Positions 27,989 to 32,340 of a stretch of 41,058 nt of DNA are shown piece by piece (positions within the stretch are counted from its first letter, which is position 1; each line of letters begins with the position of its first letter). The stretch is from Candidatus Eiseniibacteriota bacterium (GTDB lineage: Bacteria; Joyebacterota; Joyebacteria; Joyebacterales; Joyebacteraceae): the NCBI GenBank assembly GCA_030600655.1, contig JAUVLP010000009.1, positions 1 through 41,058 on the forward strand, given 5' to 3'. The notes below the pieces were generated by a model. The model saw nothing but the letters and a program-made list of their open reading frames with translations. It was not told the DNA's origin and made no database searches. The translations under genes and the position numbers were made by a program.

Positions 27989-28579
27989 CTAATCCCGTAT
28001 CTGTTTCTCGGAGAGCATCCTGTCCATGCGGACCTGCGGCTCACGTGACTTCGCCAGAATCAGCTGTGGCCCGTCTGTCGGGCTCGAGAAGCTGTCCGGT
28101 CTGAGCGTATCGGAATAGTCTGCGAAAACGACAGGTTCGCTGCCGCTCGCTACGCATAGTTTGCTGGCCGATGAGATGATGGATGTGGATGTGCTTGTAC
28201 CCGCGATCTCGATGTCTCCCGGACTGCGGCCGCCGAGGCCGGGGCCGTTGCCGACCCAGAATCCGACTGCAAAGAGAACCAACGCCATCGCGACTGAAGC
28301 GAACTTCGGCACAGAACTGTGCGTGAAGAGCAATCGGCGCATCGGAGATTCGTGGTGAATGCGCTGCATGAGGCGGGCCGTGAATCGCGTCCAGTAGAAC
28401 GATGAGGGCTCCACGTACCCATCTTCATGAAGGAGTCCGAAGGTCCGCTTGAGCAGCTCCATCTCGTGGGTGCATTCAACACACTCCGCCAGATGGCGCT
28501 CGAGCTCATCCCCTTCACCGTGACCGAGGTCACCGTCCAGGTACTCGATCAACAGATCTCTGACAACGTCACATCTCAT
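27989..28579 (-). CDS. Anti-sigma factor with N-terminal zinc finger
   Basis: 196 residues. The N-terminus has the anti-sigma zinc motif H-x3-C-x2-C (H29, C33, C36) in a typical layout (LLIEYLDGDLGHGE...HLAECVEC). One membrane helix at about 92-110 (FASVAMALVLFAVGFWVG) separates a cytoplasmic sigma-binding part from an exported part of about 85 residues with no recognised sensor domain. It starts one base after the stop of the sigma gene, so the pair is made together. It would hold the sigma factor inactive until an envelope signal releases it. Confidence 0.9.
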   Translation of the reverse strand: MRCDVVRDLLIEYLDGDLGHGEGDELERHLAECVECTHEMELLKRTFGLLHEDGYVEPSSFYWTRFTARLMQRIHHESPMRRLLFTHSSVPKFASVAMALVLFAVGFWVGNGPGLGGRSPGDIEIAGTSTSTSIISSASKLCVASGSEPVVFADYSDTLRPDSFSSPTDGPQLILAKSREPQVRMDRMLSEKQIRD

Positions 28580-28580
28580 G

Positions 28581-29162
28581 CTATCTCAGATCCTCCAGCT
28601 TCGTTCTGAGCTTCCTGATAGCGTGGAAATAGTTGGCCTTCGACGTTCCCTCGGAACAACCCACGATATCGGCGATCTCGTTATGCGTCAGGCCTTCAAA
28701 GAACTTGAGGACGAATACAGCCCTCTGCTTGTCTGGTAGTGTGCGAACAGCCGCATCGATCCTCTCGGCGATTTCGCTGCTCAGAGCCGCCCTCGCGGGA
28801 TCACTCGATGCCTTTCTGTCCGGCCTCGGCAGGTCCCCAAGCGGGAGCATATTCCTGAACTTGTCCCGCTTCAGTCTGTTGAGAGCGATATTGACGGTGA
28901 TACGGTAGAGCCACGTGTACAGGCTCGACCTGCCCTCGAATCTGCCTATGTGGCGAAAGACCTTTATGAAGGCTTCCTGCGCCACGTCCTCGGCGGTATC
29001 ATCGTCCCGGACAACACGCCAGGCAACGCGGTAGATGCGCTCCCTGTATTCGGTTACGAACTCCTCGAAGGCCCGCTCATCACCGGCCTTGAGGCGCTCA
29101 ATCAGTCTCTCCGAGCCATCATCAGGCGGCAAGTCAGCCTTCCTGGTCATCATATCTGACAC
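28581..29162 (-). CDS. ECF RNA polymerase sigma factor (RpoE-like)
   Basis: 193 residues. Region 2 contains YRERIYRVAWRVVRDDDTAEDVAQEAFIKVFRHI and YTWLYRITVNIALNRLKR; region 4 contains LPDKQRAVFVLKFFEGLTHNEIADIVGCSEGTSKANYFHAI. This is the classic two-domain extracytoplasmic-function type. GTG at 29162 is the track start; ATG codons follow three and four codons later, and none has a clear Shine-Dalgarno. A TTGACA promoter lies about 80 bases upstream. Target promoters cannot be derived from one window; the two secreted-protein genes next door are natural candidates. Confidence 0.93.
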   Translation of the reverse strand: MSDMMTRKADLPPDDGSERLIERLKAGDERAFEEFVTEYRERIYRVAWRVVRDDDTAEDVAQEAFIKVFRHIGRFEGRSSLYTWLYRITVNIALNRLKRDKFRNMLPLGDLPRPDRKASSDPARAALSSEIAERIDAAVRTLPDKQRAVFVLKFFEGLTHNEIADIVGCSEGTSKANYFHAIRKLRTKLEDLR

Positions 29163-29504: not shown

Positions 29505-31220
29505 CTACCTGTTCGGCAGATACCTTGCCTTGATCACACCCCAGGATTCTATGACGGTCGTTGTTCCCGGAGGATCATCCGGAACGCTCGTCACCGTGTC
29601 ACACCAATCCCAGAGATCCATGACCTCCATCGGTCCCACACGCGTCGCCACGCAACCGTCGATGTCGTCGAGGGTCAGCGCCCTGTTCGGATACGTGTCG
29701 CACTCGAAGGTATCGTTGAACGCGTACTTGTACTCCAAGTACCGATAGCTACCGGTCGGGAACGTGACGAGCGCCGTGTAGATGTCGTCATCGGCAACGA
29801 TATCGCCATTCGTACCGTCGTCAACGAGGACTGTGTCAGTCACCCAATCAAGCGGAGCGATTGTGCCGTGAACCGCAATGACGTCGGTCAGGACGTTGAC
29901 CGAGTCGGAAAACACCATCTGGAAGAGCACACCGACATCACACGTGATATTGTCGGATGGAGCCATATCCTCCCACCACACGGTGGCCGTCTGGCTCGCA
30001 GCGTTCGGATCGAGTGTCACATAGTGACCGAAGTCGTAGTCGCCTTCCCACGTCGCGCAGTCGGCAACATACTTGTACTTGACGAGGGTCGACTCAGCGG
30101 CAGCGCCGCAGGTATAACCCATGGAGAAGTACTCATCGACAACATACGTGGAGTCGACATCGCCGTCGGAGCTCTCCGCGCCGGCACACTGATCCCATGT
30201 GAGCGGATACGTGTCGCCCTGGATGTGAACGCTCGTCGGCACACCGTTGATGTCAATATAGAGGTGCATATTCAGTTCGAACGTGACCATGTGCAGGTAG
30301 AAACAGTCATCGTTGTTGCTCGGGCCGACCGGAGTCCCACCTTCATCCGTCACACCGGTCACGACGAACTGGTAATCGTAGCCCTCTGTGAGCGCCGGGC
30401 TCAAGGTCAGGTGGACGATGCCGCCATCGGTGGCGTCCAGAGTCGCATCCGTCACCGTGATTGCGCCGGGTCCACCCGTCACTGCATAGTTTGCCTCGGT
30501 CTCGGCGGTCGTCTGATCCATGTCATCCGAGAACTGGATAGCACAGAGGCTCGCATCGGTGCCGTCCCCGTCAATCCTCGCATCGATTACGGCCGGCGGC
30601 GCGCTCGAGACGACCTCTGTCGTGTTCGTCGCCATGTCGTAGCTGAACGTAACAGGCGTCGTGCCGTCGGATACGAAGACTATGTTGTTACCGCCCGGCG
30701 GGGTGTTCTGATCCCAGTTATTGTTCAGGACGATCTTGAAGGCGTAGCTGCCCGACGGGATAACGGACTGGAACACCCAGACACCGTCGTCGTCACCGTC
30801 GGACATAACGGTAGTCACGGTATCGGTCTGGTCCCAATCGGCGCCGCCGAGTTCACTCATGAGATCACCACAGACGATGGGTGGATTCATGTGATGAAAG
30901 ACGTACTCGTCACCCTCCTTGGTCCCCACCGTCGCGCCAAGGTTGACGTACCACGTGACGTCGTCGTCTGAGGCAAGGTTGAATATCTGGTCCGAGCCGG
31001 GGAAATCCAGGCCCCACGCGTCACCATCGACAGCCTTGTAATTGGTGGCGCCCGCAAGGACGGTCGTCGTTAACGTCCACACTCCGTTCCCCTGAAGCGT
31101 CAATTCACTGGCCGGATCGGCAAGGTCCCAACCCTGGAAGCTACCCACAATGCTCGGAGCGGCCAGCGCGACGGGCGCGGCCAGCAGGGCCACCAGAATG
31201 GCCACCGCGAATGTCCTCAT
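29505..31220 (-). CDS. Secreted protein with several carbohydrate-binding-like beta domains
   Basis: 571 residues. A signal peptide (AVAILVALLAAPVALA) is followed by a glycogen/starch-binding-like unit (SIVGSFQGWD...NYKAVDGDAWG), a similar unit at about 110-205, an Ig-like domain with the bacterial Big_5 style (IQFSDDMDQTTAETEANYAV, LSPALTEGYDYQFVVTG), and two more CBM20-like units with repeated VKYKY/LEYKY strands. It ends in ESWGVIKARYLPNR, a tail shared with the neighbour gene. No catalytic residues are apparent; a glycan-binding or surface role is inferred. The ATG has GGGGAG upstream. Domain calls rest on pattern similarity, not on a search. Confidence 0.8.
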   Translation of the reverse strand: MRTFAVAILVALLAAPVALAAPSIVGSFQGWDLADPASELTLQGNGVWTLTTTVLAGATNYKAVDGDAWGLDFPGSDQIFNLASDDDVTWYVNLGATVGTKEGDEYVFHHMNPPIVCGDLMSELGGADWDQTDTVTTVMSDGDDDGVWVFQSVIPSGSYAFKIVLNNNWDQNTPPGGNNIVFVSDGTTPVTFSYDMATNTTEVVSSAPPAVIDARIDGDGTDASLCAIQFSDDMDQTTAETEANYAVTGGPGAITVTDATLDATDGGIVHLTLSPALTEGYDYQFVVTGVTDEGGTPVGPSNNDDCFYLHMVTFELNMHLYIDINGVPTSVHIQGDTYPLTWDQCAGAESSDGDVDSTYVVDEYFSMGYTCGAAAESTLVKYKYVADCATWEGDYDFGHYVTLDPNAASQTATVWWEDMAPSDNITCDVGVLFQMVFSDSVNVLTDVIAVHGTIAPLDWVTDTVLVDDGTNGDIVADDDIYTALVTFPTGSYRYLEYKYAFNDTFECDTYPNRALTLDDIDGCVATRVGPMEVMDLWDWCDTVTSVPDDPPGTTTVIESWGVIKARYLPNR

Positions 31221-31323
31221 GTTCTCTCCCCTCTCTCGTGGCGAAAGGCCTTGCGCTCAATGTGCTGCAGTCTCAATGGAGTTCGCTCGTGCCCCGTTCG
31301 CCCTCCCCCATGCTCGGAAACTA

Positions 31324-31354
31324 CGGGCCCTGACGTTTGGCTCGCCAGGGCCCG
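31324..31354 (-). terminator. Perfect nine-base hairpin between the two secreted-protein genes
   Basis: CGGGCCCTG and CAGGGCCCG pair perfectly around a 13-base loop, 44 bases past the stop of the gene at 31398. No T-run; it may end transcription by another route, or protect or separate the two messages. Confidence 0.5.
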
Positions 31355-31397
31355 CGTAACACTATGCAGATTCAAACATGTGCCAGACCCTGACTAC

Positions 31398-32222
31398 CTA
31401 CCTGTAGATAGCCTTGATCGTGCTCCACGTCGACTCCTCAACCGGGCTCGAGCAGTCAGGACAGTCAGGCGTGTTCCACTCCCAACCGTCGACCGCAAGG
31501 TCCATCGTCGGCGCTGAGTCATCGATCGTGAAGCTGTGGTTGCCGGTACTTTCCCAAGTCACGCAGTCGTCCTTCTTGTACTTGTACTCGACGTAGGGGT
31601 TACCGCCCGCCGGGAAGAGAATATCCACCTGGTAAAGCTTCGGGCTCACAGCCTCACAGCTGAAAGCCATCAACACACCATCGCCCCAGTTGGTAAGCGG
31701 ATCGCCGGCGCCTGTGACACAGACATCACCAGCGGTCTCGACACCCTCCGTGAGACAGAGGTGGAACGTAACCGTCACATCCTGCGCGGTCACCGTGGTG
31801 ATCGGCAGGAAGAAGTTCGGGTCATTGCCGTACTGGTCCTGACCATAGCACTCGGCCATGTCGGTCAGATCGACGACCTTGACGAAGAACTCGACCTCGG
31901 CACAGCCGTGGCCGGCGGGGATGACACCCTGGTACTCGTCGTTGCTGCCAACGTCGCCCAAGTAGACCATTGGGACTTCGATGAAGTCGGGGTCACCCGT
32001 GCAGCGGTAGTACAGGTAGGCCTCGATGTCCGCGCCCTGACCGGCCGCGTCCGTAACGCCTTCTTTCCAGATCTGCACGTAGACTCCAATGTCCTCAGCA
32101 GACGTGTACGGTGTGCCGTTCACAGGCCAGATATTCCCACACCAGCCTACCGCACCCATCGCGGTCGAGGCGACGGCCAGAAGCATCACGCCGGCCAGAA
32201 GCATTGTCACAGACTTCCTCAT
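31398..32222 (-). CDS. Secreted protein with a CBM20-like starch-binding domain
   Basis: 274 residues from the ATG at 32222 (GGAGG five bases upstream; the track start is 16 codons longer). A signal peptide (SVTMLLAGVMLLAVASTAMG) precedes an Ig-like exported region, then a CBM20-like domain at about 150-250 with VTVTFHLCL, NWGDGVLMAFS and EYKYKKDDCVTWES, very close to the starch-binding pattern. It ends CSSPVEESTWSTIKAIYR. The tail is shared with the 571-residue protein. A very good promoter lies 112 bases upstream, so it is probably highly expressed. No enzyme domain is seen. Confidence 0.82.
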   Translation of the reverse strand: MRKSVTMLLAGVMLLAVASTAMGAVGWCGNIWPVNGTPYTSAEDIGVYVQIWKEGVTDAAGQGADIEAYLYYRCTGDPDFIEVPMVYLGDVGSNDEYQGVIPAGHGCAEVEFFVKVVDLTDMAECYGQDQYGNDPNFFLPITTVTAQDVTVTFHLCLTEGVETAGDVCVTGAGDPLTNWGDGVLMAFSCEAVSPKLYQVDILFPAGGNPYVEYKYKKDDCVTWESTGNHSFTIDDSAPTMDLAVDGWEWNTPDCPDCSSPVEESTWSTIKAIYR

Positions 32223-32340
32223 CCTTCCCTCCCTTTTTCGGACGCCACGACCCGAGCCACTCTTCGGCACGGAAGCGACATCTCATAGTGACACCACGGG
32301 GTCCACTCAAGACGCGAACCCACATTCCATCTACGAAGCA

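Follow-up and report, generated by a model that had tools for sequence, protein, structure and literature searches.

The window analyzed here, the whole 41,058-nucleotide stretch of a contig from a Candidatus Eiseniibacteriota bacterium, encodes two neighboring secreted proteins on its minus strand (Table 1). Protein 1 combines a signal peptide with a pullulanase X25-type domain (Pfam PF22058, E = 3.8e-27), an SWM repeat, a choice-of-anchor X-like domain (NCBIfam choice_anch_X, NF041940; E = 1.5e-4, under the curated cut-off) and a C-terminal tail. Protein 2 joins a CBM20-type domain (CBM_20, PF00686; E = 1.4e-5) to a similar tail; its open frame is readable from a GTG at 32270, and the ATG at 32222, which lies at the signal peptide, is the likely start, with the stop at 31398. 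Immediately after the gene of protein 1, genes for an ECF sigma factor and a zf-HC2 protein, a putative anti-sigma factor, follow downstream on the same strand (27992-29162).

Table 1. Features of the two tail-bearing genes (positions are those of the window)
Feature	Position	Strand	Basis
Protein 1 gene, 571-aa secreted protein	29505..31220	minus	ORF list
Protein 1 signal peptide, MRTFAVAILVALLAAPVALAA	31158..31220	minus	sequence
Protein 1 linker motif, TSVPDD	29574..29591	minus	likeness to T-G-[VI]-x-[DE] (inference)
Protein 1 C-terminal tail, ESWGVIKARYLPNR	29508..29549	minus	sequence, homologs, pLDDT
Protein 2 gene, 274-aa secreted protein with CBM20-type domain and tail	31398..32222	minus	ORF list
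Protein 2 signal peptide, MRKSVTMLLAGVMLLAVASTAMGA	32151..32222	minus	sequence
Protein 2 CBM20-type domain	31515..31778	minus	Pfam, residues 165-252
Protein 2 C-terminal linker and tail, SPVEESTWSTIKAIYR	31401..31448	minus	sequence; fits genome-wide pattern

The C-terminal ends of proteins 1 and 2 are ...TSVPDDPPGTTTVIESWGVIKARYLPNR and ...CPDCSSPVEESTWSTIKAIYR, respectively, and so bear out an earlier sequence-only reading of this DNA, which had proposed a tail common to the two proteins. The tail is retained on homologs of both in other genomes. Protein 1 has 12 such homologs, and W560, G561, K564 and Y567 of its tail are invariant (n = 13 homologs), with the endings differing among these 13 as YR, YLPNR, YRAR, YKAK and YRNK; protein 2 has 14 homologs, and the W, K, Y and R of its tail are invariant (n = 15 homologs). 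The pair is slightly off the general consensus given below, protein 2 having S in place of G and protein 1 a four-residue extension. The last domains of the two proteins are distantly related (30% identity over 141 aa, E = 2e-9), so a duplication trace cannot be excluded from the window pair alone.

We searched DNA with the pattern W-x-x-[IVM]-K-x-x-[YF]-R-stop, with the stop codon included, and used the reversed pattern as the control. The bacterium's own genome (2.6 Mb) yielded 48 matches against a single control match, a count far above chance. Across the phylum of the window there were 932 matches versus 2 for the control, distributed over 20/20 genomes at 23-78 per genome. This phylum is probably Candidatus Effluviviacota, an inference from public records in which relatives of the window proteins bear the names Candidatus Eisenbacteria or Candidatus Effluviviaceae. 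A second phylum, which includes a Zodletone genome labelled Eisenbacteria, gave 479 matches versus 4 for the control in 44/47 genomes, and splits into 33 genomes with 4-22 tails and 14 genomes with 0-3. No tail match was obtained in the one genome of a third phylum that was checked (G021).

The overall consensus of approximately 15 residues is S-P-V-E-x-x-S-W-G-x-I-K-A-L-Y-R. The initially suggested form, E-S-(T)-W-x-x-I-K-A-x-Y, had caught a real tail and requires only slight correction: upstream comes [ST]-[PA]-V-E, and the core reads [ST]-W-G-x-I-K-[AS]-[LM]-Y-R-stop. Conservation extends to positions that the search pattern does not set: among the 48 tails of the own genome, V is found at -14 in 44, E at -13 in 35, S or T at -10 in 45, G at -8 in 37, and A or S at -4 in 43. 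As codons vary freely, this conservation is at the protein level. Tails from the second phylum (21 examples) have the same core behind a P-[ST]-P-A linker, with F as frequent as Y. Two short tail-bearing frames without a signal peptide (63 and 58 aa) are probably broken genes or sequencing errors. Three beta-helix-type proteins of about 500 aa, encoded on contigs C25 and C155 of genome G000, have near-identical endings (...SCDGQVTSVEDPPEAAPVSWGRIKSLYR), which suggests recent duplication or an assembly repeat.

The tail is not limited to the two genes in the window: 44 of the 48 open frames in the own genome are carriers of at least 100 aa, and these fall into 21 passenger clusters (BLAST, E = 1e-5), the largest of which has 17 members that are mainly beta-helix proteins. 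The occurrence of one tail on 21 passenger clusters rules out a duplication trace as a general explanation. By a crude test, a signal peptide is present in 40/43 carriers of at least 120 aa compared with 40/276 background ORFs; two of the three remaining carriers have an evident N-terminal hydrophobic segment, and the third is truncated at the 5' end in the sequence read. The background ORFs come from 400 kb of a related genome taken without selection, a sample with too few tails and T9SS domains (the C-terminal domains of type IX secretion) for any other use. Pfam domains found among the carriers include beta-helix, NosD, polymorphic membrane repeat, cleaved-adhesin, FG-GAP, cohesin, CBM20 and X25, and NCBIfam adds choice-of-anchor J along with a sub-threshold choice-of-anchor X. 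The choice-of-anchor families owe their names to their position beside varying anchors. Searches of 45 carriers with Pfam and NCBIfam recovered no match to Por_Secre_tail, CHU_C or FlgD_ig, and no known domain from either collection covers the tail itself in the carriers scanned.

The AlphaFold models, which were built from small alignments, give a pLDDT below 50 for the linker and at or below approximately 50 for the tail in both proteins; in protein 1 the values stay under 50 across residues 541-571. The tail of protein 2 is drawn as a strand, and that of protein 1 as a helix (residues 560-566, very low confidence). On these predictions the tail does not belong to the starch-binding domains as one of their strands; had it done so, the sequence-only reading would have been refuted. 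A membrane-anchored CTERM tail is rejected, as the tails end in IKALYR-stop without a hydrophobic stretch or helix.

Using protein 2 without its tail as the query, we recovered relatives with 37-44% identity in 7/17 genomes of the third phylum. Four complete frames were read for the swap count, and the G021 relative, which runs off its contig, was left out. In all four (467-496 aa; 39-42% identity), the place of the tail at the C-terminus is taken by a canonical T9SS domain, detected as a Por_Secre_tail and/or FlgD_ig match over the last 70-80 residues. They also carry a further starch-binding-like module, which in one of them (L144) is akin to the last domain of protein 1. A partial second swap is seen within the own genome, where the N-terminus of a 1026-aa T9SS-domain protein has its choice-of-anchor J domain in common with a tail protein of 209 aa (167 aa at 57% identity). 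As the relatives of protein 2 carry a T9SS domain at this place, the tag and the T9SS domain appear to do an equivalent job, and the third-phylum swap together with the choice-of-anchor J pair indicates that they serve the same kind of cargo. The replacement of the tail by a T9SS domain in relatives thus provides direct support for a sorting function and, with it, for the original suggestion of a short sorting signal that lacks a membrane helix and is unlike PEP-CTERM or LPXTG. On sequence grounds, we regard it as very probable that the tail is a real C-terminal sorting tag. In four genomes (one of the loci being on contig C30 of G000), one or two tail genes directly adjoin two T9SS-domain genes on the same strand; the sizes in these clusters are 388 aa for the tail protein and 502 aa and 1026 aa for the T9SS proteins.

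The machinery and cargo of type IX secretion are widespread in the phylum of the window. SprA is present in 13/13 near-complete genomes, C25 peptidases in 20/20 genomes at 8-30 per genome (PorU proper was not distinguished from C25 cargo), and T9SS domains likewise in 20/20 genomes (23-106 per genome, 976 in total). A C25 peptidase of the own genome has a C25 propeptide and a C-terminal FlgD_ig domain, and the set of such gingipain-type peptidases in this phylum is large. Per genome, the counts of tails and T9SS domains are correlated (Spearman 0.84; 0.59 once genome size is partialled out). In the second phylum, SprA was detected in 28/33 tail-rich versus 11/14 tail-poor genomes (Fisher p = 0.68), and some of the five tail-rich genomes without a detected SprA may be incomplete. 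The PorV/PorQ family is strongly expanded there, with 6-15 copies in each of the 47/47 genomes (it was not counted in the phylum of the window), and its copy number is little different between tail-rich and tail-poor genomes (10.6 against 9.3; Spearman 0.40, uncorrected for genome size). Neither SprA nor PorV/PorQ is therefore supported as a gene that tracks the tail within this phylum. Since SprA does not do so, the T9SS may be needed and yet be insufficient to predict the tail, and the abundance of PorV/PorQ proteins throughout the second phylum leaves room for a specialized carrier. The expectation that a processing enzyme or reader would share exactly the distribution of the tail was not met in our search, which was confined to T9SS families: SprA and PorV/PorQ are also found where the tail is rare.

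A further point of contact lies in the linkers. Canonical T9SS cargo of the window's phylum, at a series of loci (L078-L079, L134-L138 and L153-L172), has a common T-G-[VI]-x-[DE] linker, and T-G-[VI] stands 16-21 residues upstream of the PNP start in 16/23 non-redundant T9SS domains, compared with 1.7% of background stretches. Judged from sequence, this linker is likely to be a PorU cleavage motif; the PorU of Prevotella intermedia cuts PT/GI (PMC11969387), which makes T|G-V a plausible cut site here. The linker of the tail, [ST]|[PA]-V-E, resembles T|G-V, although [ST] is mostly followed by P or A in place of G. The closest cases are families with TSVPDD or TSVEDPP, and the TSVPDD of protein 1 is similar to the T-G-[VI]-x-[DE] linker of the canonical cargo described above.

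The best single explanation, to which we assign a probability of roughly 0.6, is that the tail is a minimal sorting tag read by the T9SS itself; there is no experiment, and the dependence of secretion on the T9SS is inferred. Under this explanation, a Sec signal peptide would export the carrier, and the T9SS would then recognize the tag in the periplasm, the simplest candidate for this step being a carrier of the PorV/PorQ family at the SprA translocon. The passenger would next cross the outer membrane via the T9SS. At the [ST]|[PA/G]-V linker it may be cut by a C25 peptidase of the PorU type (the cutting is likewise inferred), which may also attach it to the surface. On this view the tag, with its 15 or so residues, would be a stripped-down T9SS signal that possibly retains no more than the last basic strand (K...R/K) of the usual 70-80-residue domain. 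For comparison, the signal of HBP35 resides in its last 22 residues, with strand 7 carrying a conserved lysine (PMC11285876). Against the T9SS explanation, the tail has no Ig-like fold, no motif B and no GxY motif D, although every T9SS domain so far described has these, and T9SS domains contain nothing that corresponds to its conserved W and G. With the fold and motifs B and D missing, the tail falls outside the T9SS C-terminal domain family as presently defined, though it works like a member.

The missing counterparts of W and G suggest a different reader, and the occurrence of SprA without the tail in the second phylum means that a dedicated reader is possible. The strongest competitor is accordingly a sorting tag with machinery of its own, such as a dedicated receptor, translocon or transpeptidase, operating beside the T9SS. 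In its full form this would be an undescribed sorting system of Candidatus Effluviviacota and Eisenbacteria, in which a reader of its own recognizes a tag of some 15 residues without a fold (W-G-x-I-K-x-x-Y-R); it would have taken over cargo that relatives send via the T9SS. The S/T-W-G-x-I-K core is unlike any T9SS motif, and both types of signal are abundant in the same genomes with no scanned tail carrier having a T9SS domain. Such a system nonetheless remains doubtful, as related passengers have a T9SS domain precisely at the place of the tail, the linkers of the two signals are alike, and no candidate reader emerged (within T9SS families only).

Less likely still, the tail would serve for retention or anchoring, as a short amphipathic segment that attaches after export to the outer membrane, to an envelope polymer or to a receptor in the periplasm, without any translocation across the outer membrane. 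Its W, I, L/M and Y together with K and R would make an amphipathic end, and the predicted flexible linker and the low-confidence helix in the model of protein 1 would suit such a role; but the model of protein 2 has a strand instead, the W-G-x-I-K spacing is tighter than membrane-binding peptides require, the passenger types are usually extracellular, and T9SS domains substitute for the tail. Short C-termini are recognized by PDZ-type readers, so a tag for quality control or turnover, with a PDZ protease or a chaperone of the periplasm as its binding partner, can be conceived; this is improbable, however, in that the variable endings of the 13 protein 1 homologs would hardly be tolerated by a reader of the free C-terminus, and exchange with a T9SS domain is not expected of a turnover tag. 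That the tail merely records a duplication, or belongs as a strand to a folded starch-binding domain, is an idea that the kinship of the last 141 residues of the window proteins might recall; it can be virtually dismissed given the 21 passenger clusters, the disordered linker ahead of the tail and the T9SS-type relatives that have the same domains without it.

We found no published description of the tail in the open literature, though the search was limited and is weak evidence of novelty; in the 2024 Effluviviacota paper (PMC11323493), a search by term located neither type IX secretion nor sorting. Being present on many exported proteins, and at the place of the T9SS domain in relatives, the tail looks like an unrecognized cell-surface address label. 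It allows the surface proteome to be predicted from sequence, to the extent of 23-78 proteins per genome in one phylum and typically 4-22 in the other. We know of no cultured model for either of these phyla. If the T9SS reads a 15-residue peptide without an Ig fold, the tail would show the minimum of a T9SS signal, a question for which the arguments have so far come from Porphyromonas truncation mutants; if the reader is something else, the catalogue still lacks a secretion or sorting machine. For surface display, a 15-residue tag would be handier than a 75-residue domain.

Among known systems, the tail has most in common with the type A T9SS domain (PF18962 Por_Secre_tail; here also PF13860 FlgD_ig): both form the very C-terminal end of proteins that are exported by Sec and whose passengers can be exchanged, number dozens per genome, follow an [ST]-small-[VI] linker, and combine a conserved Lys close to the end with K or R as the last residue. 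In a comparison with motif E, the conserved basic residue of the last strand in T9SS domains, the Lys of the tail is at -5, ahead of the terminal R/K, a register that differs from the K at about -6 in the local T9SS domains. The tail further differs in its length of about 15 rather than 70-80 residues and in its invariant Trp, usually followed by Gly, and is unmatched by the Pfam and NCBIfam models. The shortest T9SS domains described, of 40-55 residues in Prevotella intermedia, are similar in being shortened signals that occur beside long ones in the same organism; however, they keep three strands and motifs B, D and E, of which the tail has none but the basic end (PMC11969387). With PEP-CTERM/exosortase, MYXO-CTERM, GlyGly-CTERM and LPXTG the tail shares the principle of a short C-terminal tag on diverse secreted passengers, including choice-of-anchor domains, but it lacks their membrane helix and basic stop and ends directly in Y-R. 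The C-terminal signature of beta-barrels read by BAM is likewise short with an aromatic residue near the end, whereas the tail is borne by soluble-type passengers rather than barrels, has Arg and not an aromatic as its last residue, and is preceded by a disordered linker.
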